Shown here piece by piece: positions 9,367 through 39,690 of a stretch of DNA of 64,000 bases (position 1 is its first letter; every line of letters begins with the position of its first letter). The notes beneath the pieces are model-generated. The model searched no databases, was not told where the DNA came from, and saw only the letters and a list, made by a program, of their open reading frames with translations. This DNA is from Cellulosimicrobium cellulans (lineage in GTDB: Bacteria > Actinomycetota > Actinomycetes > Actinomycetales > Cellulomonadaceae), in contig NZ_JAMXST010000001.1 in the NCBI RefSeq assembly GCF_024124905.1, positions 558,001 to 622,000 of the forward strand, read 5' to 3'. The translations under genes were made by a program, and so were the position numbers.

Positions 9367-10161
9367 TCAGTCGACGCGGAGGCTGACGGTCGCACCGCGG
9401 ACGACGGGGCGCAGCTCGACCCCCGGGAGCTCCGGCGATCGCGCCAGGAAGTCGCGCAGCGGGCTGCGGAAGACCCCGTAGTCGTCGTAGTGGACCGGCA
9501 CCACGAGCGGCACCCCGACCCGCCGCACCAGGTCGGCGCCCTGGACGTCGTCCATCGTCACCGTCCGGCCGAGGATCCGCGTCCCGCCGAGGTGCGCGAC
9601 GACCGAGTCGAGGTGCGGGAAGGCGTGCGCGACGACGTCGACGTGGTCGCCGGTGAGCGTGTCGCCCGTGACGTAGACCTGGGTCTGTCGGTCGCCGTCC
9701 ACGCGGTGGGTGTAGACGGTGACCATGACCTCCGGCAGGAGCGAGCGCAGGACGCCGCGCGCGTGGATCGCCGGGACCGACTCCACGTCGAGCGTCTCCT
9801 TGCCCGAGCGGAACGTCTCGATCGTGCCGGTCGGCATGCCGACCGTCGCGAAGTGGTGCCGCGCCAGGCGCCGCGCCGCGGACGGCGTGGTGAGGAGCGG
9901 CACCTGCCTCGTCAGGCCGCGCCGCGCGACGCGGTCGAAGTGGTCGCCGTGCAGGTGGGACAGGACGATCGCGTCGAGCGGCGGGAGGCCCGTCGGGCCG
10001 ATCGCGGGCTCGGTGCGCCGCCGCGACGCGAGACCCTTGCCGAGGTAGGCCCACTGGCCGCGGTGCAGGAAGTTGGGGTCGGTGAGCACGGTGAAGCGTC
10101 CGAACCGCAGGAGCGCGGTCGCCGTCCCGCCGAACGTGAGCGTCGCGTTCGCGCGGCTCAC
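9367..10161 (-). CDS. Metallo-beta-lactamase-fold hydrolase (UlaG/YfhI-like)
   Basis: The 264-residue metal-dependent hydrolase carries the signature SHLHGDHFD with ligands His69, His71, Asp73 and His74; further ligand candidates are in AIHARG, VTGDTL and VPVHYDDYG. The short type without an inserted helicase or nuclease domain resembles UlaG-like or N-acyl-phosphatidylethanolamine-phospholipase-D-like proteins. The substrate is unknown. The GTG at 10161 overlaps the stop of the aldehyde dehydrogenase gene (GTGA), so the two are coupled. Confidence 0.88.
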   Translation of the reverse strand: MSRANATLTFGGTATALLRFGRFTVLTDPNFLHRGQWAYLGKGLASRRRTEPAIGPTGLPPLDAIVLSHLHGDHFDRVARRGLTRQVPLLTTPSAARRLARHHFATVGMPTGTIETFRSGKETLDVESVPAIHARGVLRSLLPEVMVTVYTHRVDGDRQTQVYVTGDTLTGDHVDVVAHAFPHLDSVVAHLGGTRILGRTVTMDDVQGADLVRRVGVPLVVPVHYDDYGVFRSPLRDFLARSPELPGVELRPVVRGATVSLRVD

Positions 10162-11597
10162 GGCTCCCCCAGCGCTTCGAGGTGGACGGCCTTGCGGACG
10201 GTCATCTCGTCGAGCAGGTCCGGCCCGTAACCCGCTCCCCCGCCGCTGCCGCGGCGCGGGTCGGCCGACCCGCCCGGCGCGCCGCCGAACACCGCGTTGA
10301 CCTTGACCGTGCCGACGTCGAGCACGTCGGCCGCGCGCAGCGCGTGCGCGAGCGACGCCGTGAGCACCGTCGCCGCGAGCCCGTAGGCCGACGCCGACGC
10401 CCGGCGCAGCGCCTCGTCGAAGTCCGCCACGCGCACGACCGGCGCGACGGGCCCGAACGTCTCGACGGTCAGCAGGTCGACGTCGTCCGGACACCGGTCG
10501 AGCACGGTCGGCGCGTAGTACGACCCGGGACGGTCGAGCCGGCGCGCACCGGTCACGGCGCGGGCGCCGGCCGCGAGCGCTCCCTGGACGTGCGCGTCGA
10601 CGACGGCGAGCTGGTCCTCGTCCACGAGCGGGCCCATCGTCGTCGCGTCGTCGCCGGGGTCGCCCACCACGACCTCGTGCGCGAGGCGCGCGAGCTCGGC
10701 GACGACGGCGTCCGCGACCTCCTCGACGACGTAGGCGCGCTCGACCGCGGTGCAGAGCTGCCCGCCGTTGGTGAACGCGCCCGTCGCGATCTGGCGCGCG
10801 GCGACGACGGGGTCCACGCCCGCATCGACGACGAGCGGGTCCTTGCCGCCGTTCTCGAGCAGCGCCTTCGCCCCGCGCGCCCCGGCGACCGCCGCGATCC
10901 GGCGCCCCGCGGCCGTCGAGCCGACGTGCGCGACGAGCGCGACGCCGTCGTGCCCGACGAGCGCCTCCCCGGTCGCCCCGTCCCCGCTGACGACGCGCAG
11001 CACGTCCGCGGGCAGGGCCGCGGCCACGAGCTCGGCCAGGCGGACCCCGGGGGCGTCGCTGCGCTCGGACGGCTTGTGCACGACCACGTTGCCCGTGACG
11101 AGCGCCGCGGCGAGGAGCCCGGCGGCGGCCGGGTACGGGTCGTTCCAGGGCGTGACCACCGCGACGACGCCGCGCGGCTCGCGGCGCACGACGTCGAGCG
11201 CCGCGGGGTCGCCCGCGAGCACGCGGCCCGCCCGCCCGAGACCCGCGACCGCGGCCTCGTCGAGCAGGTCCGCCGCGACCAGGGCCGACGCGCGCGCCTC
11301 GGCCTCGAGCCGGCCCGTCGTCGCCCGCAGCAGCGCGCCCAGCTCGTCGGCGGCGTCGCGCACGGACCGCGCCGCGGCGCGCAGGGCGGCGGCGCGGTCG
11401 GCCGGGGCCGTCGCGCGCCACGCGGGCCACGCGGCCACGGCGGCGCGCACGGCGGCGTCGACCTCGTCGGCCGTCGCGCACCGGACAGGGGCGGCGGGTC
11501 GCCCGGTCGCGGGGTCGGTCCGCTCGATACGGCGGTCCTCCGGGGCGGGTGCGGCGAGGTCGTCGCGCGAGGTAGTGGGGGCGGTGGACGTGGTCAT
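10158..11597 (-). CDS. Aldehyde dehydrogenase family protein
   Basis: The 479-residue NAD(P)-dependent dehydrogenase has the catalytic Cys282 in NGGQLCTAVE and general base Glu248 in LLENGGKDP, the counterpart of the usual ELGGK. The cofactor region includes VTPWNDP and VHKPSERS. The aldehyde substrate cannot be told; the family includes succinate-semialdehyde and benzaldehyde-type enzymes. The ATG at 11597 is followed by a Thr/Ser-rich leader. It is divergent from the heptose/carbamoyl operon, 187 bases away, and leads the MBL hydrolase gene. Confidence 0.9.
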   Translation of the reverse strand: MTTSTAPTTSRDDLAAPAPEDRRIERTDPATGRPAAPVRCATADEVDAAVRAAVAAWPAWRATAPADRAAALRAAARSVRDAADELGALLRATTGRLEAEARASALVAADLLDEAAVAGLGRAGRVLAGDPAALDVVRREPRGVVAVVTPWNDPYPAAAGLLAAALVTGNVVVHKPSERSDAPGVRLAELVAAALPADVLRVVSGDGATGEALVGHDGVALVAHVGSTAAGRRIAAVAGARGAKALLENGGKDPLVVDAGVDPVVAARQIATGAFTNGGQLCTAVERAYVVEEVADAVVAELARLAHEVVVGDPGDDATTMGPLVDEDQLAVVDAHVQGALAAGARAVTGARRLDRPGSYYAPTVLDRCPDDVDLLTVETFGPVAPVVRVADFDEALRRASASAYGLAATVLTASLAHALRAADVLDVGTVKVNAVFGGAPGGSADPRRGSGGGAGYGPDLLDEMTVRKAVHLEALGEP

Positions 11598-11784
11598 GCG
11601 GGCCTCCCGGCGAGTGACACGAAGAGAACTACCCATAGGTGCGCCGTGGGCGTGCGAGAAGCGCTTCTCCGGGTGAGGGTGAAGTTCGGGGTTGCAGCAG
11701 AGCCGACCCGCACGCGTCAGGCGGTGCCCCACGTTCTCGAGGCGCACCACGAGCCTGACCCGATCCAGGGAGGCTCGCAGCCCC

Positions 11785-13461
11785 ATGCGCGTCCTCGGTG
11801 TCAACGCCCTGTTCCACGACCCGTCCGCCGCCCTCGTCGTCGACGGGCGCGTCGTCGCCGCCGCGGAGGAGGAGCGCTTCTCGCGGCGCAAGCACGGCAA
11901 GCGACCGCTGCCGTTCGCGGCCTGGGAGCTGCCCGAGAAGGCGATGGCGTGGTGCCTCGAGGAGGGCGGGCTGCGCCCCCAGGACCTCGACGCCGTCGCG
12001 TACTCGTTCGACCCGGCGCTGGCCAAGCCCGCCGAGGAGATGGGCCTGCCGGACCCGTGGGACTGGTTGCGCGTGCAGTACGCCGAGCGCGCGCCGCAGT
12101 TCCTCGCCACCGCGCTGCCGGGCCTGTCGCCGTCGACGGTGCGGTTCGTGCCGCACGAGGTCGCGCACGCCGCGTCGGCCGCGCTCGCCTCCCCGTTCCT
12201 GGTCGCGAGCGTGCTGTCGCTCGACGGCCGCGGCGAGCGCTCGTCCCACCTCGCGGGCCGCTACGACCACGGCCGCCTGGAGGTGCTCGCGAGCCAGGAG
12301 CTGCCGCACTCCCTCGGGCTGGTCTACGAGTCGCTCACCGAGCACCTGGGCTTCCTGCGGTCGAGCGACGAGTACAAGGTCATGGCGCTCGCCTCCTACG
12401 GCGAGCCGCGCTTCCTCGACGACCTGCGCGAGGTCCTCTACGCGACCGGCGACGGCGGGTTCGTCGCCGAGGTGCCCGACTGGGAGCGGTGGGCGCCCCC
12501 ACGCACCGACGACGGCACGTGGGGCACCGACCACGGCGGGCTGGCGGAGCACGCCGACCTGGCGGCCTCCGTGCAGGCCCGTCTCGAGGAGGTCCTCGTC
12601 GACCTCGCCACGTGGCTGCACGGGCAGACCGGGGACCGCGTGCTGACCATGGCCGGCGGGACGGCGCTGAACTGCGTCGCGAACTCGCGCGTCTGGCGCG
12701 AGTCTCCGTTCGAGGAGGTCTGGGTCCAGCCCGCGGCGGGCGACTCCGGCACGGCGCTCGGCGCCGCGCTCCAGCTCGCCGCGGAGGCGGGCGACACCGT
12801 GGAGCCCATGGGCTCGGCCGCGCTCGGCCGGGCGTGGGGCGACGACGCGCTCGCCCGGTGGCTCCGCACGGCGCACGTGCCGTTCACGACGCCCGACGAC
12901 CTGCCCGCCGAGGTCGGACGGATCCTCGCCGACGACGGGATCGTCGCGTGGTTCGACGGCCGCGCCGAGCTCGGGCCGCGCGCGCTCGGGCACCGCTCGC
13001 TGCTCGCGCACCCCGGACCGGTGGCGAACCTGGAACGGCTCAACGACGTGAAGGGCCGCGAGCAGTTCCGCCCGGTCGCCCCGATGGTGCTGCTGGAGGA
13101 CGCCCCGGAGATCTTCTCCGGCGGCCCGGTCCCCAGCCCCTACATGCTCTTCGTGCACGACGTCGCGCCCGCGTGGCGCGAGCGCATCGCGGCCGTCGTG
13201 CACGTGGACGGCACCGCGCGCATCCAGACCGTCGACGACTCCACGCCCCGCCTCCAGGCGACGATCCGCGCGTTCAAGGACCTCACCGGGCTGCCGGTCG
13301 TCGTCAACACGAGCCTCAACACCGCGGGCCGGCCCATGGTCGACGATCCCCGCGACGCGCTCGAGCTCTTCGGCTCGGCGCCCGTGGACGCGCTCGTGCT
13401 GGGCCCGCACCTCGTGCGACGGCCGGGCGTGTTCGCCGCGCCGACGGAGGTGGAGGCATGA
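11785..13461 (+). CDS. NodU/CmcH-type carbamoyltransferase
   Basis: The 558-residue enzyme should transfer a carbamoyl group from carbamoyl phosphate, via carbamoyl-adenylate, to a hydroxyl of a small molecule or sugar. It begins MRVLGVNALFHDPSAALV, typical of the family; the N-terminal Kae1-like domain includes EEERFSRRKHGKRPLP and SLDGRGERSS, and the C-terminal domain includes ELGPRALGHRSLLA and VVNTSLNTAGRPMVD. It is the first gene of the heptose operon, and its stop overlaps the next start as ATGA. The neighbours suggest a heptose hydroxyl as acceptor, comparable to the WapO-type 7-O-carbamoylation of Pseudomonas core heptose (inference). Confidence 0.93.
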   Translation: MRVLGVNALFHDPSAALVVDGRVVAAAEEERFSRRKHGKRPLPFAAWELPEKAMAWCLEEGGLRPQDLDAVAYSFDPALAKPAEEMGLPDPWDWLRVQYAERAPQFLATALPGLSPSTVRFVPHEVAHAASAALASPFLVASVLSLDGRGERSSHLAGRYDHGRLEVLASQELPHSLGLVYESLTEHLGFLRSSDEYKVMALASYGEPRFLDDLREVLYATGDGGFVAEVPDWERWAPPRTDDGTWGTDHGGLAEHADLAASVQARLEEVLVDLATWLHGQTGDRVLTMAGGTALNCVANSRVWRESPFEEVWVQPAAGDSGTALGAALQLAAEAGDTVEPMGSAALGRAWGDDALARWLRTAHVPFTTPDDLPAEVGRILADDGIVAWFDGRAELGPRALGHRSLLAHPGPVANLERLNDVKGREQFRPVAPMVLLEDAPEIFSGGPVPSPYMLFVHDVAPAWRERIAAVVHVDGTARIQTVDDSTPRLQATIRAFKDLTGLPVVVNTSLNTAGRPMVDDPRDALELFGSAPVDALVLGPHLVRRPGVFAAPTEVEA

Positions 13462-15128
13462 GCACGCCCGTCGCGCGCCCCGCCGGCGCGGTGCCGTACG
13501 CCGTCGTCGTGCCGTCGATCGGGCGCCCGTCGCTCGACCGGCTCCTGGAGACCCTCGTCGCCCAGGCCGACGGCCCGGACTCCCCCGGGCCGGCCGAGGT
13601 CGTCGTCGCGGACGACCGCCGGTTGCCGCCGCCCGGCGCGACCGCCCCGGTGCCCGACCCGCTCGATCTCGGGGACGCCGGCCGTGCGCTCGGCGCGCGC
13701 GTCGTGCGCACCGGGGGCCGGGGCCCGGCCGCCGCGCGCAATGCCGGGTGGCGCTCGACGTCCGCGCCGTGGGTCGTGCTCCTCGACGACGACGTCGAGC
13801 TCCCCGCCGGGTGGGCGCGCCACCTCGCGCACGACCTCGCGGCGGCGACGCCCCGCACCGGCGGCGTGCAGGGGCGCCTGCACGTGCCGCTGCCGACCGA
13901 CCGCCGGCCGACGGACTGGGAGCGCGGGACCGCCGGCCTGGAGCGCGCGGCGTGGGCGACCGCCGACATGGCGTACCGGCGCGCGGCGCTGGAGCAGGTC
14001 GGCGGGTTCGACGAGCGCTTCCCCCGCGCCTACCGCGAGGACGCCGACCTCGCGCTGCGCGTCCGCGAGGCGGGCTGGGAGCTCGTGCGCGGCACGCGCA
14101 CGACGACCCACCCCGTGCGCCCCGCGGACGACGCGGTGAGCCTGCGCGTGCAGGCCGGGACGCGCGACGACGCGACGTTCCGCGCCCTGCACGGACCCCG
14201 CTGGCGCGAGCGTGCCGAGACGGGCCGCGGCCGCCTCGCGTGGCACGTCGCGACCGTCGCCGCCGCCGCCGTCGGCGTCGGCGGGCTCCTGGCACGCCGC
14301 CCGCGCGTCGCCGCGCTCGGCGCCCTCGCCTGGGCCGGTCTCACCGCCCAGTTCCTGGGCCGCCGCCTCGCGCCGGGGCCGCGTCCGGGCGACGACGCGT
14401 TCGGGCCCGAGCTGCGGCGCATGGCGTGGACGAGCGCCGCCATCCCGTTCGCCGCGGTGCGGCACCGCGTCGTGGGCACGCTCGCCGCCCGACGCGGGCT
14501 CGAGCCCTGGCCGCCGCGGCTCGCGGCCGTGCTGCTCGACCGCGACGGCACGCTCGTGCACGACGTCCCGTACACCGGCGACCCCGCGGCGGTGCGTCCC
14601 GTGGACGGCGCCCGCGCGGTGCTCGACGACCTGCGCGCCCGCGGGGTCCGGCTCGGCGTGGTGTCCAACCAGTCCGGCGTCGGGCGCGGGCTCCTCACGC
14701 GCGCGCAGGTCGACGCCGTGAACGCGCGGGTCGAGGAGCTGCTCGGCCCGTTCGACACGTGGCAGGTGTGCCCGCACGCGCCCGACGACGGGTGCGCGTG
14801 CCGCAAGCCCGGCCCGGGCCTGGTGCTCGCCGCGGCCGCCGACCTCGGCGTCGAGCCGTGGCGGTGTGCGGTCGTCGGCGACATCGGCGCCGACGTGGGC
14901 GCGGCGCTCGCCGCGGGCGCGACGCCGGTCCTCGTGCCGACGCCTCTGACCCGCCCCGAGGAGGTCGCCGCCGCGCCGGTCGTCGCGGCCGACCTCGCCG
15001 GGGCGGTCCGCGCGCTCGACGGCCGCCTGCCCGGCGCCGCCACCCCCACCGACGCCGACCCCACCGACGCCGACCCGGACGCGGCCGACACGCCGGACGC
15101 GTCCCGGACCGGGGAGCGTGCCGCATGA
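13458..15128 (+). CDS. GT2 glycosyltransferase fused to heptose-1,7-bisphosphate phosphatase (GmhB-like)
   Basis: The 556-residue protein has two domains. Residues 1-250 form a GT2 fold: VVVPSIGRPSLDRLLETL, the Asp triple in VLLDDDVELP and the acceptor-side acid EDADLALRVREAGW. Membrane-associated hydrophobic segments follow at about 255-310. Residues 355-520 form a HAD-IIIA phosphatase with DRDGT at about 361, SNQSGVGRG, and the zinc loop CPHAPDDGCACRKPGPG that marks D-glycero-beta-D-manno-heptose-1,7-bisphosphate 7-phosphatase. The last 35 residues are an acidic Asp/Thr/Ala tail. Both ends overlap neighbours by four bases. The fusion ties donor synthesis to transfer. Confidence 0.9.
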   Translation: MSTPVARPAGAVPYAVVVPSIGRPSLDRLLETLVAQADGPDSPGPAEVVVADDRRLPPPGATAPVPDPLDLGDAGRALGARVVRTGGRGPAAARNAGWRSTSAPWVVLLDDDVELPAGWARHLAHDLAAATPRTGGVQGRLHVPLPTDRRPTDWERGTAGLERAAWATADMAYRRAALEQVGGFDERFPRAYREDADLALRVREAGWELVRGTRTTTHPVRPADDAVSLRVQAGTRDDATFRALHGPRWRERAETGRGRLAWHVATVAAAAVGVGGLLARRPRVAALGALAWAGLTAQFLGRRLAPGPRPGDDAFGPELRRMAWTSAAIPFAAVRHRVVGTLAARRGLEPWPPRLAAVLLDRDGTLVHDVPYTGDPAAVRPVDGARAVLDDLRARGVRLGVVSNQSGVGRGLLTRAQVDAVNARVEELLGPFDTWQVCPHAPDDGCACRKPGPGLVLAAAADLGVEPWRCAVVGDIGADVGAALAAGATPVLVPTPLTRPEEVAAAPVVAADLAGAVRALDGRLPGAATPTDADPTDADPDAADTPDASRTGERAA

Positions 15129-16201
15129 GCGCCGACGTTCTCGCCGTGCGCCTCGACAGCGACGGCGACGTCCTCCTCACCGGCCCGGCGGTCCGGGCCA
15201 TGGCGCGCACGGTCGCGCCGCGCGGCGGGCGGGTCGACGTGCTGGCCTCCCCCGCCGGGCACGCCGCGGCGGGGCTGCTCCCGGACGTGCGCGAGGTGCT
15301 CGTGTTCGACGCCCCGTGGTCCGGCTACCGACCTCCGCGCGTCGACCGCGCGCGCGTGCTCGACCTCGTCGCGACGCTCGCCGCGCGGCGCTACGCGTCG
15401 GCCGTGGTCTTCACGTCGTTCCACCAGAGCCCGCTGCCCGCGGCGATGCTCCTGCGGCTCGCCGGGGTCGAGCACGTCGCCGCGGTGAGCGAGGACTACC
15501 CCGGATCGCTCCTCGACGTGCGCCACGCACGACCCGACGGCCTGCACGAGGTGGAGGCCGCGCTCGACCTCGTCCGCGCGGCGGGCTTCGGCGCGCCGCC
15601 CGACGGTGACCGGCTGCGCGTGCGTCGCCCCCTCCCGGACGTGAGCGACCTCGTCCCGACCGGGCCGTACGTCGTCGTCCACCCCGGCGCGTCCGTGCCC
15701 GCGCGTGCCCCCGCGCCCGACCACGCGCGGGACGTCGTCGCGGCGCTCGCGGCGTCGGGCCGGGAGGTCGTGGTCAGCGGCGGGCCGGGCGAGACCGACC
15801 TCGCGGCGCACGTCGCCGCGGGGCGCGCGCTGGACCTGTCGGGGCGCACGGACCTCGCGCGTCTCGCGGCGGTGCTCGCCGGCGCCCGCTGCGTCGTCGT
15901 CGGCAACACGGGGCCCGCGCACCTGGCCGCCGCGGTCGGCACGCCCGTCGTGTCGCTCTTCGCCCCCGTGGTCCCCGCGGAGCGCTGGGCGCCGTGGGGC
16001 GTGCCGACCGTCCTGCTCGGCGACCAGGAGGCCGCGTGCCGCGGCACCCGCGCCCGGCTGTGCCCGGTGCCCGGCCACCCGTGCCTGGGCGTCGACCCCG
16101 CCGACGTCGTGGCGGCGGTCGACCGCCTCGCCGCACCGCACGTCGTCGGGACGCCCGCGCCCCGCACGTCCCTGCCCCGGACCGTGGGGGTGACCCGATG
16201 A
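15125..16201 (+). CDS. Family 9 glycosyltransferase (heptosyltransferase family)
   Basis: The 358-residue GT-B enzyme resembles ADP-heptose:LPS heptosyltransferases. Supporting segments are RLDSDGDVLLTGPAVRAM at the N-terminus (counterpart of the GDxLLTTP motif), VVHPGASVP, and the nucleotide-binding C-terminal region CVVVGNTGPAHLAAAVGTP (family GxDTGxxHxAAAxxxP; here Asn replaces Asp). The host makes no LPS, so the acceptor must be another glycan or small molecule. It is coupled by ATGA on both sides within the heptose operon. Confidence 0.9.
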   Translation: MSADVLAVRLDSDGDVLLTGPAVRAMARTVAPRGGRVDVLASPAGHAAAGLLPDVREVLVFDAPWSGYRPPRVDRARVLDLVATLAARRYASAVVFTSFHQSPLPAAMLLRLAGVEHVAAVSEDYPGSLLDVRHARPDGLHEVEAALDLVRAAGFGAPPDGDRLRVRRPLPDVSDLVPTGPYVVVHPGASVPARAPAPDHARDVVAALAASGREVVVSGGPGETDLAAHVAAGRALDLSGRTDLARLAAVLAGARCVVVGNTGPAHLAAAVGTPVVSLFAPVVPAERWAPWGVPTVLLGDQEAACRGTRARLCPVPGHPCLGVDPADVVAAVDRLAAPHVVGTPAPRTSLPRTVGVTR

Positions 16202-17196
16202 GGATCCTCGTGTGGCACGTGCACGGGTCGTGGGCGACGTCCTTCGTCGCAGGCGGCCACGAGTACCTGGTCCCGGTCGTCCCCGACCGCGGGCCCGACG
16301 GCCGCGGCCGCGCGCGCACCTGGGACTGGCCGCCGGGCGCGCGCGAGGTGGCGCCGGACGAGCTCGCCGACCTCGCGGCGGACGGGTCGATCGACGTCGT
16401 GGTGCTCCAGCGCCCCGAGGAGGTCGAGCTGCTGCGCCGCTGGACCGGGCTCGTGCCCGGCCGCGACGTGCCCGCCGTCTACGTCGAGCACAACGCCCCG
16501 ACCGGCCATGCGGCCGCGACCCGGCACCCCCTCGCCGAGCTCGACGTGGTCGAGGAGGGCCTCGTGCCGATCGTGCACGTCACGGCGTTCAACGCGCTCA
16601 TGTGGGACACGGGCGACGCGCGCACGCTCGTCGTCGACCACGGCGTCCCCGACCCCGGCCCGCTGTACACCGGGGAACGGGCGAGCGTCGGCGCCGTCGT
16701 CAACGAGCCCGTGCGGCGCTGGCGCGTCGCCGGGACCGACGTGCTCGTCGGGCTGGGGCGGCACGTGCCGCTCGCCGTCTACGGCATCGGCGTCGGCAAG
16801 CTCGCCGAGCACCTCGTCGCGCCGCCCGGGGACCTCCCCCACCGGCTGCACGACGACGTCCCCCAGGCCGCGATGCACGCGCGCCTCGCGACGTCGCGCG
16901 TCTACCTGCACCCCTACCGCTGGACGAGCCTCGGGCTCTCCCTGCTGGAGGCGATGGCGCTCGGGATGCCGGTCCTCGCGCTGCCGACCACCGAGGCGCC
17001 CGTCGCGGTGCCCCCGGCCGCGGGGCTCCTCAGCGCCCGTCCCGACGAGCTCGCCGCGACCGCGCGGCGCTGGCTCGCCGACCCCGACGACGCCCGCGAG
17101 CACGGCCGGGCGGCACGCGCCCACGTGCTCCAGCACTACTCCCACGCCGCGTTCCTGCGGCGCTGGGACACGGTCCTGACGGAGGTGACCTCATGA
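16198..17196 (+). CDS. GT4-type glycosyltransferase
   Basis: The 332-residue GT-B-fold transferase is short for the family, with a reduced N-terminal domain (MRILVWHVHGSWATSFVAGG). The C-terminal half has the family's acceptor/nucleotide signature around TSLGLSLLEAMALGMPVLAL. A conserved YVEHNAPTGHA segment lies near residue 95. Donor and acceptor are unknown. The start at 16198 overlaps the stop of the GT9 gene, and the stop overlaps the next GT4 start. Confidence 0.85.
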   Translation: MRILVWHVHGSWATSFVAGGHEYLVPVVPDRGPDGRGRARTWDWPPGAREVAPDELADLAADGSIDVVVLQRPEEVELLRRWTGLVPGRDVPAVYVEHNAPTGHAAATRHPLAELDVVEEGLVPIVHVTAFNALMWDTGDARTLVVDHGVPDPGPLYTGERASVGAVVNEPVRRWRVAGTDVLVGLGRHVPLAVYGIGVGKLAEHLVAPPGDLPHRLHDDVPQAAMHARLATSRVYLHPYRWTSLGLSLLEAMALGMPVLALPTTEAPVAVPPAAGLLSARPDELAATARRWLADPDDAREHGRAARAHVLQHYSHAAFLRRWDTVLTEVTS

Positions 17197-18467
17197 AGAT
17201 CGCGATGATCTCCGAGCACGCCAGCCCCCTCGCCGCGCTCGGCGGCGTCGACGCGGGCGGGCAGAACGTCCACGTCGCGTCGCTCGCCACCCGGCTCGGC
17301 GCCCAGGGCCACCGCGTCGAGGTGTTCACGCGCCGCGACGACGCGTCCCTCCCCGAGCGCGTGCCCCTCGCGCGCGGCGTGGACGTCGTCCACGTGGACG
17401 CCGGCCCGCCGGTGGCCGTGCCCAAGGACGACCTGCTCCCCCACATGGACGCGTTCGGCGCGGACCTGCTGCGGCGCTGGGTCGAGCCCGGGCCGCGCCC
17501 CGACGTCGTGCACGCGCACTTCTGGATGTCCGGGATCGCGGGCCTGCTGTCCGCGCCCGCGCTCGGCGTCCCCCTCGTGCAGACGTTCCACGCGCTCGGG
17601 TCCGTCAAACGCCGCCACCAGGGCGCGCACGACACGAGCCCGGCCGAGCGCGTGGCCCGCGAGCGCCTGCTGTGCCGCGCGGTCGACCGGATCGTCGCGA
17701 CGTGCGCCGACGAGGTCGCCGAGCTCGTCGCGCTCGGCGCGGACCCCGACCGCATCGACGTGGTCCCCTGCGGGGTCGACCTCGGCCGCTTCCTGCCCGA
17801 CGCCGACCGCTCGGACCACCTGCACCGCGAGCCCGGGCGCCTGCGCCTGCTCTCGGTCGGCCGCCTCGTCGAGCGCAAGGGCGTGGACACCGTGATCGAG
17901 GCGCTCGCGGAGCTGCCGGGCGCCGAGCTCGTCGTGGCGGGCGGACCGGCCGCGGACGCCCTCGACCACGACCCCGAGGTGCTCCGGCTGCGCGCGGTCG
18001 CGGACGCGTCGGGGGTGCCGGACCGGGTGCGGTTCGTCGGCAGCGTGACCCAGGACGACGTGCGTGACCTCATGCACGCCGCCGACGCCGTGGTGTGCGA
18101 CCCCTGGTACGAGCCGTTCGGCATCGTCCCGCTCGAGGCCGCCGCGTGCGGACGCCCCGTCGTCGGCGCGGCCGTCGGCGGCCTGCTCGACTCGGTCGTC
18201 GACGGGCGCACCGGCCTGCTCGTCCCGCCGCGGGACCCCGGGGCGCTCGCGGCGGCCCTCCGGCGGCTCGCCGACGACCCGGCGTTCGCGGAGCGCCTCG
18301 GCTCGGCCGCGCGCGTCCGGGCCGAGCACCTGTACGGGTGGTCGACGGTCGCGGCCCGCACCGCCGAGTCGTACGAGCTCGTCGTGGCCGCGCGCCGCGC
18401 CGAGCCGGGGCGCGCACGGCCCGTCGTCGGTGCCCGCGCCGCGCTGCGGGCGGTGAGCGCACCGTGA
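17193..18467 (+). CDS. Family 4 glycosyltransferase
   Basis: The 424-residue retaining GT-B enzyme opens with MKIAMISEHASPLAALGGVD then AGGQNVHV, the donor-loop form seen in sucrose-phosphate-synthase and MshA-like GT4 enzymes. The EX7E motif is EPFGIVPLE near residue 308, followed by AACGRPVVGAAVGG. A UDP- or GDP-sugar donor is likely for this subfamily. It sits between another GT4-like gene and the GmhA-HldE fusion and overlaps each by four bases. Confidence 0.92.
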   Translation: MKIAMISEHASPLAALGGVDAGGQNVHVASLATRLGAQGHRVEVFTRRDDASLPERVPLARGVDVVHVDAGPPVAVPKDDLLPHMDAFGADLLRRWVEPGPRPDVVHAHFWMSGIAGLLSAPALGVPLVQTFHALGSVKRRHQGAHDTSPAERVARERLLCRAVDRIVATCADEVAELVALGADPDRIDVVPCGVDLGRFLPDADRSDHLHREPGRLRLLSVGRLVERKGVDTVIEALAELPGAELVVAGGPAADALDHDPEVLRLRAVADASGVPDRVRFVGSVTQDDVRDLMHAADAVVCDPWYEPFGIVPLEAAACGRPVVGAAVGGLLDSVVDGRTGLLVPPRDPGALAAALRRLADDPAFAERLGSAARVRAEHLYGWSTVAARTAESYELVVAARRAEPGRARPVVGARAALRAVSAP

Positions 18468-20695
18468 CGGCGCACCGGCCCGGGGGCAGCGCCGGCCCGC
18501 AGGACGCGGCGCGACGCTGGCTGCGCGAGCACGCCGCGGACCTGCACGACGGCCTCGACCTGCTCACGGCCGAGGCCGGGCGCCTCGACGCGTGGGGCGC
18601 GCGGCTGGCCGACACCGTGCTCGCGGGCGGGCGGCTGCTCGTCGCGGGCAACGGCGGCAGCGCCGCCGAGGCGCAGCACCTCACGGCCGAGCTCGTGGGG
18701 CGCTTCGACGGCGAGCGGACGCCCCTCTCCGCGATCAGCCTGCACGCCGAGACGTCGAGCCTCACCGCGATCGTCAACGACTACGGCGTCGGCGAGATGT
18801 ACGCGCGGCAGGTCGCCGCGCACGGGCGGCCGGGCGACGTCCTCGTGCTGCTGTCGACGTCGGGCGAGAGCGAGAACGTCGTCGCCGCGGCCCGCCGGGC
18901 GCGCGAGCTCGGCCTCACGACGTGGGCGCTCACCGGTCCGCGGGACTGCGCGCTGGCCGCCGCGTGCGACGACGTGCTCGCCCTGCGCGGGGCGTCGACG
19001 TCGTCGGTCCAGGAGCTCCACCTCGTCGTCGTGCACGCGCTGTGCGCGGCGCTCGACGCGCACGTGCGCCACCGGGAGGCGGCCGCCCGGGGCGACGCAC
19101 CCGGTGCCCCGCCCGACGGTCTGCCCGGCGAGGGGCCCGTGGACGGGCGGGCCGCGCAGGATCCCGCCGCAGCGACCGCGGCGGTGCTCCCACCGTCGTC
19201 CACGGCAGCGCAGGGCCCGCGCGTCGTCGTGGTCGGCGACGTGCTGCTCGACCGCGACGTCGACGGCCAGGTGACGCGCTTCTCCCCCGACGGGCCCGTG
19301 CCCGTGGTCGACACGCTCGGCGTCCGGCGCAGCCCCGGTGGCGCGGGGCTGACGGCCCTGCTCGCCGCCGACGCGGCGCGCGTGCGGCTCGTCGCGCCGT
19401 TCGGCGACGACGAGGCGGGCGGCGAGCTGCGTGCGCTGCTGCGTCCGCACCTCGACGTCGTGGCGCTGCCCCAGGTGGGCACCACGCGGCGCAAGACCCG
19501 CGTGCGCTCGGGCGGGCAGACCGTCGTCCGGGTCGACGACGGCGGTCCGGCGGGTCCCGACGACGTGCCCGAGCGCTCCGTGCGGGCGGCGCTCGCGGGC
19601 GCCGACGTCGTCCTCGTCTCGGACTACGGGGCCGGCACGACGCACGCCGGCCCCGTGCGCGACGCGCTCCAGCACGCGGCCCGCGACCGGACGGTCGTGT
19701 GGGACCCCCACCCGCGCGGCGGGGCACCCGTGCCCGGGACCGCGCTCGTCACGCCCAACCTCGCCGAGGCGCTCGACGCGGCGGAGGCCCTCGGGCTCGA
19801 CGCGTGCGCCGACGACCCGGGCGGCCTGGCCCGGGCGCTCGCCGCCGCCTGGGGCGTGCGGGCGGTGTGCGTCACCGCGGGCGAGCACGGAGCGTTCGTC
19901 GCGCGCGCCGACGGGGAGCCCGCGTACGTGCCCGCGACCGTCGCGCACGGCGACCCCTGCGGCGCGGGCGACCGGTTCGCCTCGACGGCGGCGGTCGCGC
20001 TCGCCCGGGGCGCCGAGCTCGTCGAGGCGGTCGTCGCGGCGGTCGCCGCGGCCTCGGCCTGGGTCGCGGCCGGCGGCGCCGAGGGCTACCGGCGCCGCGC
20101 CGACGTCCCGGGTCGGCGCGCGCCCGACGCGGTGACGGACGGGGTGCCGGACCGCGCGCCCCGCGACGTCGGGGCTGCCTCCGACGCGGCCCCGCCGCAG
20201 GACCCGGGCGGGCCCGAGGCGGTGGCCGCGCGGCTGCGCGCGGCGGGCGGCACCGTCGTCGCCACCGGCGGGTGCTTCGACATCCTCCACGCGGGCCACG
20301 TCGCGACGCTCGAGGCCGCGGCGCGCCTCGGCGACCACCTCGTGGTCCTCCTCAACGGCGACGCGTCCGTGCGGCGGCTCAAGGGGCCGCAGCGACCCGT
20401 CGTCGGGCAGGCCGACCGGGCCCGCGTCCTCGCCGCGCTCGACTGCGTGTCGGCCGTCGTCGTCTTCGACGAGGACGACCCGCGCTCCGCGCTCGACCGC
20501 CTGCGCCCGGACGTGTGGGCGAAGGGCGGCGACTACACCGAGGAGGCCCTGCCCGAGGCCGAGGTGGTCCGGCGCCACGGCGGGCGGGTCGTCGTCCTGC
20601 CCTACGTCGACGGCCGCTCCACGACCTCGATCCTCGAACGCTCCGGGCGGTTCGCGCCCGGGCTCCCGACCCTGACGGAGGAGACCACCGCATGA
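18464..20695 (+). CDS. Three-domain GmhA-HldE fusion: sedoheptulose-7-P isomerase, heptose-7-P kinase, heptose-1-P adenylyltransferase
   Basis: The 743-residue protein joins three enzymes. Residues 1-205 are GmhA-like: GNGGSAAEAQHLTAELVGRF at about 62, STSGESENV, and VQELHLVVVH with metal ligand positions. Residues 250-555 are a PfkB/ribokinase-fold kinase (HldE-1): VVVVGDVLLDRD at about 253, SPGGAGLTALLA and the GAGD catalytic loop HGDPCGAGDRF near 500. Residues 590-725 are a cytidylyltransferase-fold domain (HldE-2): GGCFDILHAGHVATLEAA near 602 with the HxGH motif, and VRRLKGPQRPV. Two Ala/Pro-rich linkers connect them. Apart from the 7-phosphatase, which is on the GT2 fusion upstream, this one chain covers ADP-D,D-heptose synthesis. 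The GTG start overlaps the GT4 stop. Confidence 0.93.
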   Translation: MTAHRPGGSAGPQDAARRWLREHAADLHDGLDLLTAEAGRLDAWGARLADTVLAGGRLLVAGNGGSAAEAQHLTAELVGRFDGERTPLSAISLHAETSSLTAIVNDYGVGEMYARQVAAHGRPGDVLVLLSTSGESENVVAAARRARELGLTTWALTGPRDCALAAACDDVLALRGASTSSVQELHLVVVHALCAALDAHVRHREAAARGDAPGAPPDGLPGEGPVDGRAAQDPAAATAAVLPPSSTAAQGPRVVVVGDVLLDRDVDGQVTRFSPDGPVPVVDTLGVRRSPGGAGLTALLAADAARVRLVAPFGDDEAGGELRALLRPHLDVVALPQVGTTRRKTRVRSGGQTVVRVDDGGPAGPDDVPERSVRAALAGADVVLVSDYGAGTTHAGPVRDALQHAARDRTVVWDPHPRGGAPVPGTALVTPNLAEALDAAEALGLDACADDPGGLARALAAAWGVRAVCVTAGEHGAFVARADGEPAYVPATVAHGDPCGAGDRFASTAAVALARGAELVEAVVAAVAAASAWVAAGGAEGYRRRADVPGRRAPDAVTDGVPDRAPRDVGAASDAAPPQDPGGPEAVAARLRAAGGTVVATGGCFDILHAGHVATLEAAARLGDHLVVLLNGDASVRRLKGPQRPVVGQADRARVLAALDCVSAVVVFDEDDPRSALDRLRPDVWAKGGDYTEEALPEAEVVRRHGGRVVVLPYVDGRSTTSILERSGRFAPGLPTLTEETTA

Positions 20696-21426
20696 CCTCG
20701 ACCACCTCGACCACCCCGCAGCCCGACCGGGCCCCGGCCCCGCGCGAGCTCGGCACCGTCTACGTCACGGGCGGCGCGAGCGGCCTGGGCGCCGCGCTCG
20801 TCGACGCCGTCACGGCGGCGGGCGGCAAGCCGGTCGTCCTCGACCGGGTCGCGCCCGCGGGCGGTGCGCCCCACGCCGTCGTCGACCTGTCCGACTCGGC
20901 CGCGGCGGCCGCGGCGGTCGAGCGCCTGGCCCTGGAGGTCGGCCCGCCCGACGCGGTCGTCACCGCCGCGGGCACCGACGCGTGCGGGCGGCTCGACGAG
21001 ATCGACGTCGAGACGTGGGAGCGCGTCGTGCGCGTCAACCTCTTCGGGACGGTCGCCGTCGTGCGCGCCGCGCTGCCGTTCCTCGAGGAGCGGCGCGGGA
21101 CGGTCGTCACCGTCGCGTCGACCCTCGGCCTCAAGGGCGTGTCCGACGCGACCGCGTACTGCGCGTCCAAGTTCGCCGTCCGCGGGTTCTCCCAGGCGCT
21201 CGCCGCCGAGCTCGCGGGACGCGTCGGCGTGACGTGCCTCGTGCCCGGCGGGATGCGCACCGCGTTCTTCGACGGCCGCACCGAGCAGTACAAGCCTGGC
21301 CCGGACGCCGACCTCAACGACCCGCGCGCGACCGCGGCCGCCGTCGTGACGGCGCTGCGCCAGCCGGTCGGCTGCGAGATCCGCGAGATGCTCGTCATGG
21401 CGTCCGGCGAGACGTCGTGGCCGTGA
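20692..21426 (+). CDS. SDR family oxidoreductase
   Basis: The 244-residue classical SDR has YVTGGASGLG (cofactor), TAAGTDACG, VASTLGLKG (catalytic Ser) and YCASK. It is not an HldD-type extended SDR: it is too short and lacks that family's epimerase layout. It may oxidise or reduce a sugar or its precursor within the heptose pathway (inference). It overlaps the fusion gene before it (ATGA) and the GT9 after it (GTGA). Confidence 0.9.
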   Translation: MTSTTSTTPQPDRAPAPRELGTVYVTGGASGLGAALVDAVTAAGGKPVVLDRVAPAGGAPHAVVDLSDSAAAAAAVERLALEVGPPDAVVTAAGTDACGRLDEIDVETWERVVRVNLFGTVAVVRAALPFLEERRGTVVTVASTLGLKGVSDATAYCASKFAVRGFSQALAAELAGRVGVTCLVPGGMRTAFFDGRTEQYKPGPDADLNDPRATAAAVVTALRQPVGCEIREMLVMASGETSWP

Positions 21427-22505
21427 CGACCGACGCCACCGGGCTCGCGCCCGACCTGCCGGGGCTCGGGGGCCAGGACGCGGGCACGGTCCTCGTGCTG
21501 CGTGCGCTCGGGCTCGGGGACGCGCTCACCGCGGTCCCGGCCCTGCGCGGCGTGCGGCGCGCCTGGCCCGGGCGCCGCGTCCTGCTCGCCGCTCCGGAGG
21601 AGGTGGGCGGCTGGCTCCGCGACCTCGGGCTCGTCGACGGCGTCGTGCCCTCGCAGGGCCTCGCACCCCTCGCGTGGGTCGAGGAGTCCGCGGCGGTGTC
21701 CGGCGCCCCGCCCTCCGGGCACGTCGCCGTGAACCTGCACGGCAGCGGGCCCCAGAGCCACCGCGTGCTCCTCGACACCGCGCCCGAGCACGTCGTCGCG
21801 TTCGCGTCGCGCGAGGCGGGCGTCGCCGGGCCGGGCTGGGACCCCGACGAGCACGAGGTCGACCGCTGGTGCCGCCTGGTCACGGCCGCGGGCGGAGCGT
21901 GCTCGCGCGAGGACCTGCGGCTCGACCCGCCCGCGTCGCGCGGGCGGCACGTCGTCGTCCACCCGGGTGCGGCCTCGGGGTCCCGGCGCTGGCCCGCGGA
22001 CCGCTTCGCCGCCGTCGCGCGCGACCTCGCCGTCGCGGGGCACGACGTCGTCGTCACGGGCGGCCCGGACGAGCGCGACCTCGGCGCGCGCGTCGTCGCG
22101 GACGCCACCGCGTCCCTCGCGGAGGCGACGAGCGCGACGGGCGCCGTGACCGACACCGCGGGCACGCTCGACCTGCCCGCGCTCGCCGACGTCGTCGCGA
22201 CCGCGCGCCTCGTGGTGTGCGGCGACACGGGCGTCGCGCACCTCGCGACGGCGTTCGGCACCCCGTCGGTCGTCCTGTTCGGGCCGACCCCGCCGTCGGC
22301 GTGGGGCCCGGCGATCGACCCGGAGCGCCACGTCGTGCTCTGGCACGGCGGCGACGCGGCGCCCGCGCGGCCTGGTGGGCAGCCGGACGGATACCGCGGC
22401 GACCCGCACGCCGCCGCCCTCGACCCGGCGCTCGAGCGGGTCACCGTCGACGAGGTCGTGGCCGCGGCCCGAGCGCTGCTCGCGGTGGCACCGCGGCGGG
22501 CCTGA
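21423..22505 (+). CDS. Second family 9 glycosyltransferase (heptosyltransferase family)
   Basis: The 360-residue GT-B enzyme shows stronger family motifs than the first GT9: VLRALGLGDALTAVPALRGV at the N-terminus, HPGAASGSRRWPADRFA (the ADP-heptose synthase/transferase HPGxSxxxKxWP pattern) and VCGDTGVAHLATAFGTPSV with DTGxxH intact. ADP-heptose is the expected donor. It is the last gene of the operon and converges on the UDP-glucose dehydrogenase gene with a 25-base gap and no obvious hairpin. Confidence 0.9.
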   Translation: MTTDATGLAPDLPGLGGQDAGTVLVLRALGLGDALTAVPALRGVRRAWPGRRVLLAAPEEVGGWLRDLGLVDGVVPSQGLAPLAWVEESAAVSGAPPSGHVAVNLHGSGPQSHRVLLDTAPEHVVAFASREAGVAGPGWDPDEHEVDRWCRLVTAAGGACSREDLRLDPPASRGRHVVVHPGAASGSRRWPADRFAAVARDLAVAGHDVVVTGGPDERDLGARVVADATASLAEATSATGAVTDTAGTLDLPALADVVATARLVVCGDTGVAHLATAFGTPSVVLFGPTPPSAWGPAIDPERHVVLWHGGDAAPARPGGQPDGYRGDPHAAALDPALERVTVDEVVAAARALLAVAPRRA

Positions 22506-22530: not shown

Positions 22531-23871
22531 CTACGCCGTCGGGCTGCTCGACCGCGGCCGTCCCGCGCGGACGCCGGCGACGCCGAGCGAGCGGACGTCC
22601 CACCCCGCCGCGCGCCACCGGCCGCGGTCGACGGCGTTGCGCGCGTCGACGAGGCGAGGCGCGCGCACGACGCCGACGAGGTCGTCCGGGTCGAGCGCGC
22701 GGTACTCGTCCCACTCGGTCGCGAGGACGACGACGTCGGCCCCGGCGGCCGCCTCGCGCGCGTCGGCCGCGTAACCGAGCTCGGGGGCGGCGGCCTGCGC
22801 CAGAGCCAGCGCCTGGGGGTCGGTGACGACGACGTCGGCGCCCTCGGCGGCGATCGCCCGCGCGAGCGCGAGCGCGGGCGAGCTGCGCACGTCGTCGCTG
22901 TCGGGCTTGAACGCGGCACCGAGCACCGCGACCCGCCGGGCCGCGAGCGAGCCGCCGCACGCCGCGCGGGCGAGCTCGACCGCCCGGTCCCGGCAGCGGT
23001 CGTTGATCGCGTCGACCTCGTCGAGGAAGGACACGGCCGGCCCGACGCCGAGCTCGCGCGCCCGGGCCGCGAACGCGCGGATGTCCTTGGGCAGGCAGCC
23101 GCCGCCGAACCCGAGACCCACCCCCAGGTAGTCCCCGCCGATGCGGCGGTCCAGCGCCATCGTGCCGACGAGCGCGACGGCGTCGCCGCCCGCGGCCTCG
23201 CACACCTCCGCGACCGCGTTCGCGAACGAGATCTTCGTCGCGAGGAACGCGTTCGCCGCCACCTTGGCCAGCTCCGCCGTGGCGAGGTCGGTCACGAGGC
23301 GCGGGACGCCGTCGTCCAGGAGCCGCGCGTAGACCGCGTCGAGGCGCGCCACGAGGGCGTCGCCGTCGTCGGGCACGCCGTAGACCAGCCGGTCGGGGTG
23401 CAGCGTGTCCACGACGGCGTGACCCTCGCGCAGGAACTCGGGGTTCCACGCGAGGCCGACGCCGTCGGGCAGGTCGCGGGCGAGCCGCTCCGCCGTCCCG
23501 ACGGGCACCGTCGACTTGCCGACCACGACGGCGCCGGGCCGCAGGTGCGGGCGCAGCGCGGCGAGCGCCGCGTCGAGCTGCTGCAGGTCGGCCACCCCGC
23601 TCCCGGCCGACTGCGGCGTGCCGACGCACAGGAAGTGGACGTCCGAGCCCGCGGCGCGCGCGGCCTCGGTCGAGAACCTGAGGGAGCCGGGGCCGTCGGA
23701 GCCGGCCAGCAGCGCCGTGAGCCCCGGCTCGAAGAACGGCGCCCGGCCCTCGGCCAGCGCGTCGACCCGGGCGCGGTCGACGTCCACCCCGACGACGTCG
23801 TGGCCGAGCCGTGCCATCGCCGCGGCGTGCACGGCCCCGAGGTAGCCGCACCCGTGCACCGAGAGCCTCAT
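22531..23871 (-). CDS. UDP-glucose 6-dehydrogenase
   Basis: The 446-residue protein oxidises UDP-glucose to UDP-glucuronate in two NAD steps. It has an N-terminal Rossmann motif HGCGYLGAVHAAAMARLGHD, the catalytic Cys in FGGGCLPKDIRAFA, a conserved ELAKVAANAFLATKISFANA helix and the C-terminal GAAFKPDSDDVRSSPAL. The ATG at 23871 overlaps the stop of the decarboxylase gene upstream. GDP-mannose dehydrogenase is the main alternative, but the paired decarboxylase favours UDP-glucose. Common symbols are ugd or udg. Confidence 0.92.
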   Translation of the reverse strand: MRLSVHGCGYLGAVHAAAMARLGHDVVGVDVDRARVDALAEGRAPFFEPGLTALLAGSDGPGSLRFSTEAARAAGSDVHFLCVGTPQSAGSGVADLQQLDAALAALRPHLRPGAVVVGKSTVPVGTAERLARDLPDGVGLAWNPEFLREGHAVVDTLHPDRLVYGVPDDGDALVARLDAVYARLLDDGVPRLVTDLATAELAKVAANAFLATKISFANAVAEVCEAAGGDAVALVGTMALDRRIGGDYLGVGLGFGGGCLPKDIRAFAARARELGVGPAVSFLDEVDAINDRCRDRAVELARAACGGSLAARRVAVLGAAFKPDSDDVRSSPALALARAIAAEGADVVVTDPQALALAQAAAPELGYAADAREAAAGADVVVLATEWDEYRALDPDDLVGVVRAPRLVDARNAVDRGRWRAAGWDVRSLGVAGVRAGRPRSSSPTA

Positions 23872-24917
23872 GCGTCCGCCCCTCCCGACCCCCCGGCGGC
23901 GCCGGTCGCGACCGCCACGGCGGGTCCGCGCCCTGCCTCCTCGCGGAACCACGCGACCGTGCGGGCCAGGCCCTCGGGCCAGGGCGTGCGCGCGCGCCAG
24001 CCGAGGACGCGCTCCGCGAGCGCGGTGTCGGGTCGACGGCGGCGGGGGTCGTCCTCGGGCAGGTCGACGTGGACGATCCCCGCGTCGCTGCCCGTCGCGG
24101 CGAGCACGTCCTCGGCCACGCGGGCCACGGTGAGCTCGGTGGGGTCGCCCAGGTTCACCGGCCCCGGGTGGTCCGAGCGGGCGAAGGCGAGGATCCCCTC
24201 CACGAGGTCGTCCACGTAGCAGACCGAGCGGGTCTGGGAGCCGTCGCCCGCCACGGTGAGCGGCTCGCCCGCGAGCGCCTGGCGGACGAACGTGGGCACC
24301 ATGCGCCCGTCGTGGCCGCGCATGCGCGGCCCGTAGGTGTTGAAGATCCGCACGATGCCCGCGTCCACGCCGCGCGCGCGGCGGTACGCGGCCGTGGTCG
24401 CCTCGGCGAACCGCTTGGACTCGTCGTAGACGCTGCGCGGGCCGACCGGGTTCACGTGGCCCCAGTAGTCCTCGCGCTGCGGGTGCACGTCGGGGTCCCC
24501 GTAGACCTCCGACGTCGAGGCGAGCACGAACCGTGCCCCGGCCCGCCCGGCGAGCTCGAGCCCGTGGCGGGTCCCTGCCGAGCCCACGAGCAGGGTCTCG
24601 AGCGGGAGCCGCAGGTAGTCCACCGGCGAGGCGGGCGACGCGAGGTGCAGCACGAGGTCGACCCGGTCGGGGTCCGGGACGTCGATCCCCGCGCTGACGT
24701 CGGCCTCCACGAACCGGAACCGGGGCTCGTCGCGCAGCGCGTCGAGGTTGCGGACCTCGCCCGTCGACAGGTCGTCCACGCACACGACCTCCGTGCCCCG
24801 GGCCACGAGCGCCTCGCACACGTGGCTGCCCACGAACCCGGCGCCGCCCAGGACCACGGCACGGCGCGCACGACGTCCCGTCGAGCCCGCGCCTCGCACC
24901 ACCGACGTGTCGCCCAT
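23868..24917 (-). CDS. UDP-glucuronate decarboxylase (UDP-xylose synthase)
   Basis: This 349-residue extended SDR has LGGAGFVGSHVCEALVARG for NAD, the family-specific ASPASPVDYLRLP, YxxxK as YDESK, and the long signature NTYGPRMRGHDGRMVPTF. It converts UDP-glucuronate to UDP-xylose and CO2. A 17-residue Arg-rich leader precedes the Rossmann strand. It is the first gene of a two-gene unit with the dehydrogenase, and together they give UDP-Glc to UDP-Xyl. It is about 200 bases from the divergent APC transporter gene. Confidence 0.92.
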   Translation of the reverse strand: MGDTSVVRGAGSTGRRARRAVVLGGAGFVGSHVCEALVARGTEVVCVDDLSTGEVRNLDALRDEPRFRFVEADVSAGIDVPDPDRVDLVLHLASPASPVDYLRLPLETLLVGSAGTRHGLELAGRAGARFVLASTSEVYGDPDVHPQREDYWGHVNPVGPRSVYDESKRFAEATTAAYRRARGVDAGIVRIFNTYGPRMRGHDGRMVPTFVRQALAGEPLTVAGDGSQTRSVCYVDDLVEGILAFARSDHPGPVNLGDPTELTVARVAEDVLAATGSDAGIVHVDLPEDDPRRRRPDTALAERVLGWRARTPWPEGLARTVAWFREEAGRGPAVAVATGAAGGSGGADA

Positions 24918-34332: not shown

Positions 34333-34424
34333 GGTCGCCTCTCGTCCGGGGCAGCGCGGTCGGCGCGACCCCTCTGGTGGAGAGACCGCCCCGGCGCACG
34401 ATCATGACGCCGGGACGGCCTCGC

Positions 34425-34440
34425 GGTGACGAACGTCACC
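34425..34440. promoter_or_regulatory. Palindrome upstream of the sigma-fusion gene
   Basis: GGTGACGAACGTCACC is a seven-base inverted repeat around AA between the adhesin stop and the sigma-fusion start. It may be an operator; the stem is too short for confident termination. Confidence 0.4.
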
Positions 34441-34453
34441 CCGCCCAGGTCCC

Positions 34454-39512: not shown

Positions 39513-39548
39513 GGTGCTGACCTCCTCGGGTCGTCCTGACGATCACGA

Positions 39549-39569
39549 CGCCGCCCCGGAGGGGCGGCG
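39549..39569 (-). terminator. Hairpin between tRNA-Arg(CCG) and rtcB
   Basis: CGCCGCCCC and GGGGCGGCG form a nine-base-pair stem around GGA, directly after the tRNA 3' end. It probably terminates or defines the tRNA 3' end; read-through could reach rtcB. Confidence 0.75.
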
Positions 39570-39570
39570 C

Positions 39571-39646
39571 TGGTGCGCGCGGGAGGACTCGAACCCCCGC
39601 CGCCCGGCTCCGGAAGCCGGCGCTCTGTTCGCTGAGCTACGCGCGC
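39571..39646 (-). tRNA. tRNA-Arg (anticodon CCG)
   Basis: The 76-base gene includes an encoded CCA end. The acceptor stem GCGCGCG pairs with CGCGCGC, the D stem is GCTC/GAGC, the anticodon stem CCGGC/GCCGG holds loop TTCCGGA (anticodon CCG), and the T loop is TTCGAGT on a GGGGG/CCTCC stem. Confidence 0.95.
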
Positions 39647-39690
39647 TGGTGCTCCTTAACGTCGAGCAGACGGGACGCGAGGCGTCCAGG

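Follow-up and report, generated by a model that had tools for sequence, protein, structure and literature searches.

The closest described relative of the locus analysed here is cwg, a putative "cell wall glycan" operon of 12 genes (sco6179–sco6190) in Streptomyces coelicolor (Hong et al. 2002). The accessible parts of a later study give the cwg promoter sequence, and report that cwg is controlled by sigma-E and induced by vancomycin (PMC6767563). In the available part of a paper of 2026, these are still treated as cell-wall genes without a structure (PMC13011467); in the literature searched, we recognised no account of the cwg product from titles or abstracts, and a fuller prior account may exist. 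Tridomain NDP (nucleoside diphosphate)-heptose synthetases of actinobacteria have also been published (Tang et al. 2022). We analysed a window of 64,000 nucleotides from Cellulosimicrobium cellulans (contig NZ_JAMXST010000001.1, positions 558,001 to 622,000), which contains at 11785–22505 an operon for heptose-nucleotide synthesis and glycosyl transfer. Our results indicate that this operon is the Cellulosimicrobium version of the known, chemically unsolved Streptomyces operon, and not a new kind of system. As the counterpart of cwg, it quite likely makes a heptose-containing, carbamoylated and probably xylose-containing envelope glycan, by the scheme set out below.

The operon and its counterpart in Streptomyces

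Frame-specific and position-specific scoring of guanine–cytosine content in the window gave exactly eight plus-strand genes between 11785 and 22505, in agreement with the original prediction, made from the sequence alone, of eight genes in one orientation. In the list below, GT stands for glycosyltransferase, CT for carbamoyltransferase and SDR for short-chain dehydrogenase/reductase.

11785–13461, plus strand: O-carbamoyltransferase (CT), cwgB-like (PF02543, PF16861; novobiocin, TobZ and GdmN carbamoyltransferases; 69% to its cwg counterpart)
13458–15128, plus strand: GT2 fused to a GmhB-type HAD phosphatase, cwgC- and cwgD-like (profiles, motif alignment, cwg match)
15125–16201, plus strand: GT9a, a non-canonical GT9, cwgE-like (profiles, motifs, cwg match)
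16198–17196, plus strand: GT4a, cwgF-like (PF13524, cwg match, class-wide survey)
17193–18467, plus strand: GT4b, an MshA-like GT4, cwgG-like (profiles, cwg match)
18464–20695, plus strand: GmhA, heptose-7-phosphate kinase and heptose-1-phosphate nucleotidyltransferase in one protein, cwgH- and cwgI-like (profiles, motif alignments, cwg match)
20692–21426, plus strand: SDR oxidoreductase (profile match; no counterpart in cwg loci)
21417–22505 (the start may be 21423), plus strand: GT9b, a GT9 with canonical motifs, cwgJ-like (profiles, motifs, cwg match)

Each gene had been said to overlap the next by four bases, and this is so at six of the seven junctions as called. At the seventh, between SDR and GT9b, the called start at 21417 gives a 10-base overlap, and an in-frame GTG at 21423 would give a 4-base GTGA overlap, so the claim can hold for all seven. 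The families that had been named (carbamoyltransferase, GT2, two GT9, two GT4 and SDR) were recovered with Pfam and NCBIfam in the order carbamoyltransferase, GT2–GmhB, GT9, GT4 (PF13524), MshA-like GT4, SIS + PfkB + cytidylyltransferase, SDR and GT9. The operon holds five glycosyltransferase domains and one carbamoyltransferase, and the four steps to NDP-heptose are carried by two of its genes. Among the best 120 of 3613 matches, the closest protein relatives are those of Cellulosimicrobium (98%).

The published cwg promoter, used as a pattern on 392 genomes of the genus of genome G106, gave one exact match (locus L091) and three with one mismatch. L091 contains 12 genes, namely UDP-xylose synthase (UXS), CT, GT2, GmhB, GT9a, GT4a, GT4b, GmhA, HldE, GT9b and two more GT2; a divergent polysaccharide deacetylase gene lies beside them, in agreement with the deacetylase sco6178 in the accessible part of PMC6767563. 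The labels in print, as given in the available parts of the sources, are phosphoheptose isomerase for cwgH, bifunctional for cwgI (PMC5839063) and putative heptosyl transferase for cwgE (PMC5882110), and they agree position by position with the L091 genes; we infer that the "dehydratase" cwgD is a GmhB-like protein. In tblastn searches against L091, nine of the 12 cwg genes match the window operon in the same order, at 50–69% identity per domain, and a tenth, cwgA, matches at 62% a flanking UXS gene that adjoins the operon on the opposite strand. The cwg gene content and order, UXS-CT-GT2-GmhB-GT9-GT4-GT4-GmhA-HldE-GT9, is therefore found in the window with UXS on the other strand. The same ten components occur in the one-mismatch loci L093 and L094, the GT9a and kinase of L093 being matched in pieces.

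The likeness to cwg thus consists of nine genes in the same order plus the counterpart of cwgA. The window differs in the fusions of GmhB to GT2 and of GmhA to HldE, in the inserted SDR, in having UXS beside the operon and not inside it, in lacking the two last GT2 genes nearby, and in having an upstream palindrome in place of the published promoter.

Heptose nucleotides, glycosyl transfer and UDP-xylose

The pathway from sedoheptulose-7-phosphate to NDP-heptose is established in other systems. The proposal of a complete enzyme set for a D-glycero-D-manno-heptose nucleotide in a Gram-positive actinobacterium is supported here by families and motifs. In alignments to solved structures, the expected motifs are present in GmhA, in the kinase (GAGD), in GmhB (DRDGT...CPH...CACRKP) and in the nucleotidyltransferase (HAGH, KGGDY and GRSTT), and the tridomain protein carries isomerase, kinase and nucleotidyltransferase in one frame, each with its motifs. 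The motifs of the carbamoyltransferase are also visible in such alignments, in which its relatives are the novobiocin enzyme, TobZ and GdmN. We take the aligned motifs of these five enzymes to be catalytic.

ADP-heptose had been named as the donor. The enzyme set for a heptose nucleotide stands; the donor need not be ADP-heptose, because the arginine of GRSTT, linked in print to CTP and UTP use, is present. In the accessible text of PMC11573728 this arginine (STTR5) is linked to the use of CTP and UTP, and the motif (F/L)XXGRSTT to broad nucleotide use. The published actinobacterial tridomain synthetases described there resemble the window protein in having isomerase, kinase and nucleotidyltransferase in one protein and the GRSTT arginine, and differ in the first position of the motif, since the window enzyme reads YVDGRSTT, with Y and not F or L. 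The arginine is found in 71 of 79 readable nucleotidyltransferases, 16 of them with F or L at the first position and 55 with Y. Broad nucleotide use by the window enzyme is possible. Compared with the heptose pathway of the Gram-negative lipopolysaccharide (LPS) core (GmhA, HldE, GmhB, HldD, GT9), the shared part comprises the first four steps plus one GT9 that has the canonical motifs; the differences are that GT9a lacks two motifs and that no HldD above cut-off was found in the whole genome (best 110.7 vs 274.6 bits), so that a D,D-heptose is expected.

Two GT9 enzymes of the heptosyltransferase family had been proposed; the family holds for both, and both canonical motifs only for GT9b. GT9b of the window has GD near the N terminus, [KR].WP and DTG..H, which in its family occur in 67, 71 and 64 of 71 sequences, respectively. 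In the GT9a family, NTG..H is found in 55 of 62 sequences, [KR].WP is missing in 58 of 62 and GD is retained in 61 of 62, so the combination of [KR].WP with DTG..H does not characterise it; both sets consist of the best match per locus, and a few entries may not be true counterparts. GT9a may use another donor.

Three neighbouring genes lie on the minus strand on the two sides of the operon.

22531–23871, minus strand: nucleotide-sugar dehydrogenase of UDP-glucose type (TIGR03026 above cut-off; beside the operon in 10 of 78 loci)
23868–24857, minus strand: UDP-glucuronate decarboxylase, that is, UDP-xylose synthase (UXS), cwgA-like (match to human UXS1; 62% to the first cwg gene; 42 of 78 loci)
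10158–11597, minus strand: divergent aldehyde dehydrogenase (PF00171, 391 bits; linked, function not assigned)

The protein of 23868–24857 scores 309 bits to human UXS1 vs 125 bits to the next family, of solved epimerases and dehydratases, and is likely a UDP-xylose synthase. It was also considered as HldD and rejected, being closest to UDP-glucuronate decarboxylase (TIGR02197, 60.8 vs 274.6 bits). Together, the nucleotide-sugar dehydrogenase and UXS would make UDP-xylose; these adjoining genes are an addition of the present analysis and had earlier been overlooked. In L007–L010 (three Isoptericola and one Cellulomonas), UXS and UDP-glucose dehydrogenase form one open frame of 769–799 amino acids on the minus strand beside the operon, possibly a bifunctional UDP-xylose enzyme. 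The aldehyde dehydrogenase family was found in 22 of 80 fetched loci, and PF00171 matches all 22 members of the neighbour cluster; an apparent gene-free stretch of 1.6 kb before the operon was rejected, as it contains the aldehyde dehydrogenase gene.

The proposed envelope glycan and its alternatives

In the scheme that we favour, the GmhA, kinase, GmhB and nucleotidyltransferase domains would convert sedoheptulose-7-phosphate into NDP-D-glycero-D-manno-heptose, as their motifs predict. Heptose would be transferred by GT9b, and perhaps also by GT9a. Further sugars would come from GT2 and the two GT4 enzymes; one is probably xylose, whose donor the UDP-glucose dehydrogenase and UDP-xylose synthase next to the operon would supply. 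The carbamoyltransferase would decorate the glycan. Assembly would proceed in the cytoplasm, probably on a membrane lipid, and the gene for the exporter would lie outside the operon. An eventual place in the cell envelope is suggested by the published regulation of cwg. The original prediction had allowed either a surface glycan or a secreted heptose molecule; the former is favoured because the operon matches cwg, with its published vancomycin induction via sigma-E, and the latter has been demoted.

Several observations weigh against an envelope glycan made by a cwg counterpart. The Streptomyces-like locus L092 (genome G423), which has a cwg-type promoter with one mismatch, retains only GT2, GT4b and a piece of GmhB, remnants which imply that the operon product is dispensable. 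The SDR of the window operon has no match in L091–L094. For the GT2 genes in the positions of cwgK and cwgL, the window, which is the part of the genome searched, gave only one match, at 27% and to the GT2 of the operon itself; relatives of them occur near the operon in other loci. A sigma-E-type promoter was not shown in the window, where the sole promoter scan, for sigma-70 types, gave none. The UDP-xylose genes are only partially linked to the operon (UDP-glucose dehydrogenase in 10 and UXS in 42 of 78 loci), and there is no exporter, polymerase or ligase among the operon genes. Finally, the NCBIfam heptose equivalog models match but mostly stay below their curated cut-offs (gmhA 144.9 against 209.45 bits; rfaE_dom_I 141.9 against 345; GmhB 107.9 against 178); rfaE_dom_II reaches 177.8 against 181.5 in the protein scan and 182.0, above the cut-off, in the genome search.

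An unlikely alternative is that the target of the operon is a protein or some other acceptor inside the cell, to which it would attach a carbamoylated oligosaccharide containing heptose. This would fit the lack of an exporter in the operon and of any operon protein that a simple hydropathy scan marks as multi-spanning (one candidate segment lies in the GT2 part), as well as the lack of a PF01943 protein in the genome, other flippase families not having been searched; heptosylation of autotransporters with ADP-heptose has been published for Gram-negatives, according to the accessible part of that literature. However, no candidate acceptor is linked, the five glycosyltransferase domains and carbamoylation suggest an oligosaccharide, and cwg regulation, as available in PMC6767563, points to the envelope. 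One Wzy_C protein above cut-off is encoded in the genome, on another contig. Slightly less likely again is a small secreted heptose natural product, of septacidin-like or bleomycin-like sugar chemistry, in place of a wall component: although heptose nucleotides are published intermediates of septacidin and spicamycin, the carbamoyltransferase is kin to the antibiotic enzymes TobZ, GdmN and novobiocin carbamoyltransferase, and the operon has no exporter or wall ligase, no scaffold enzyme was found among the Pfam-scanned neighbours (a scan of part of the window genes, without a cluster predictor), the gene set recurs across many genera, as antibiotic clusters typically do not, and the cwg counterpart is under envelope-stress control in the available text of PMC6767563, so that a secreted antibiotic was demoted following the cwg match.

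An envelope glycan of the kind favoured here would turn the cwg label into a checkable composition, of D-glycero-D-manno-heptose, a carbamoyl ester and probably xylose, for a gene set found across much of the class. New here are the likely UDP-xylose synthase beside the operon, the alternative fusions, the GT9 motif difference and the upstream palindrome. They offer points of attack: a pair of GT9 enzymes distinguished by two motifs, fusions that hint at which steps cooperate, and an operator candidate leading towards a regulator.

Distribution, gene fusions and the upstream palindrome

When genome contigs were searched with the tridomain protein, the best 80 of 197 loci were retained. The original prediction had proposed looking for the same gene order in related genomes, and translated searches and gene calls found it in Cellulosimicrobium, Isoptericola, Cellulomonas, Georgenia, Quadrisphaera, Pedococcus, Knoellia, Kocuria, Tersicoccus, Dietzia, Nakamurella, Kribbella, Actinoplanes, Micromonospora and others; since it recurs in many genera, the arrangement is not due to chance. 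The operon has no SDR in Kocuria, Tersicoccus, Dietzia, Nakamurella and Modestobacter. All ten core components are present in 42 of the 78 loci with any called component, many others being cut by contig ends, and partial or rearranged sets occur, e.g. in L019, L048–L051, L053, L066–L069 and L079. L078 (titled Gammaproteobacterium) and L080 (Candidatus Aquirickettsiella) have no called component, only kinase and nucleotidyltransferase. A second kinase–nucleotidyltransferase stretch and an opposite-strand GT9 lie near the operon in L053, L066, L068, L069 and L079, possibly a variant pathway. The operon is not special to this organism, because GT4a (E ≤ 1e-30) was found in 79 of 296 genomes sampled from the class; a listed rfaE-II match lies within 12 kb of GT4a in 70 of these 79 and within 5 kb in 45, and the rfaE-II family is above cut-off in 65 of the 296.

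Fusions were counted in the window, the 78 loci and L091–L094 (n = 83). GmhA is fused to the kinase in 20, fused to GT4b in 12, separate in 41 and unreadable in 10; GmhB is fused to GT2 in 35, fused to GT9a in 12, separate in 17 and unreadable in 19. A tree of 60 rows (GT9a, GT4a, GT4b and nucleotidyltransferase) mostly tracks taxonomy and implies at least five changes of GmhA state and at least eight of GmhB state; it comes from a quick search with long branches flagged, and contig-end cuts and possibly truncated "separate" GmhB calls soften the eight, the five being firmer. That adjacent genes have fused repeatedly suggests that their enzymes work together. The tree places Dietzia beside Kocuria and Tersicoccus, a grouping that hints at transfer. 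L006, titled Sphaerisporangium cinnabarinum ATCC 31213, falls inside Cellulosimicrobium, which suggests a mislabelled or mixed assembly.

Two features stand out between the aldehyde dehydrogenase gene and the operon.

11656–11669, no strand assigned: palindrome GAGAAGCGCTTCTC, candidate operator (conserved upstream of CT)
11689–11700, plus strand: block GGGTTGCAGCAG (an exact copy precedes the first operon gene in the window and 10 close loci; it occurs once in the genome)

Of 47 sequences, the window included, 15 carry AGAAGCGCTTCT with at most one mismatch in the 300 bases before CT, eight of them exactly; the remaining 1,045,596 bases of the same 47 sequences contain no exact copy and eight one-mismatch copies. 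Because the palindrome was first spotted when nine upstream regions were aligned, the relevant count is that in the other 38 sequences, of which nine have it: Isoptericola, Georgenia, Pedococcus, an uncultured Tetrasphaera, Kribbella, Knoellia, two Spongiactinospora and an unclassified actinomycete (the Isoptericola is close to the sequences aligned first; L048 and L050 belong to one genus, with an uncertain start codon). At this threshold it was not found in 32 of the 47, including the Micromonospora, Kocuria, Tersicoccus, Dietzia and Nakamurella rows. There is no genome-wide excess of the exact 12-mer in ten relatives (0–4 forward copies per genome vs 0–3 for the reversed control), nor of the 14-mer with at most one mismatch in the genome itself (four copies vs three). 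Exact copies outside the operon, one in this genome and nine in six relatives, are all in coding-like open frames, and seven of the ten sit in one homologous long gene, which we take to encode alpha-ketoglutarate decarboxylase. The conserved feature of the palindrome is its place upstream of the operon, not its number of copies, and the search for a regulator via further operator copies did not find one. The palindrome may resemble the operators of the LacI family. Its conservation suggests that the operon is probably transcribed under the control of its own palindromic operator.

A wider and more tentative reading, which we think could be right but do not expect to be, is that, across much of the class Actinomycetes, bacteria lacking LPS build a carbamoylated heptose/xylose envelope glycan resembling a core oligosaccharide, with repeatedly fused enzymes and, in several families, a dedicated operator. 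If so, Gram-positive bacteria would also be a general source of the NDP-heptoses sensed by ALPK1.

Elsewhere in the window, an RtcB-type RNA ligase gene (38280–39762, minus strand) adjoins two tRNA-Arg genes. At 32368–36304 (minus strand), one frame contains sigma-70 region 2, zinc-finger and bacterial Ig domains, beside a DUF5979/Ig-domain protein. Genes for a DNA polymerase III alpha-type protein, an ImpB/MucB/SamB-family protein and a protein of 250 amino acids without a Pfam match are consecutive at 43406–49570 (minus strand), a row that we take to recall the ImuA-ImuB-DnaE2 mutagenesis cassette.

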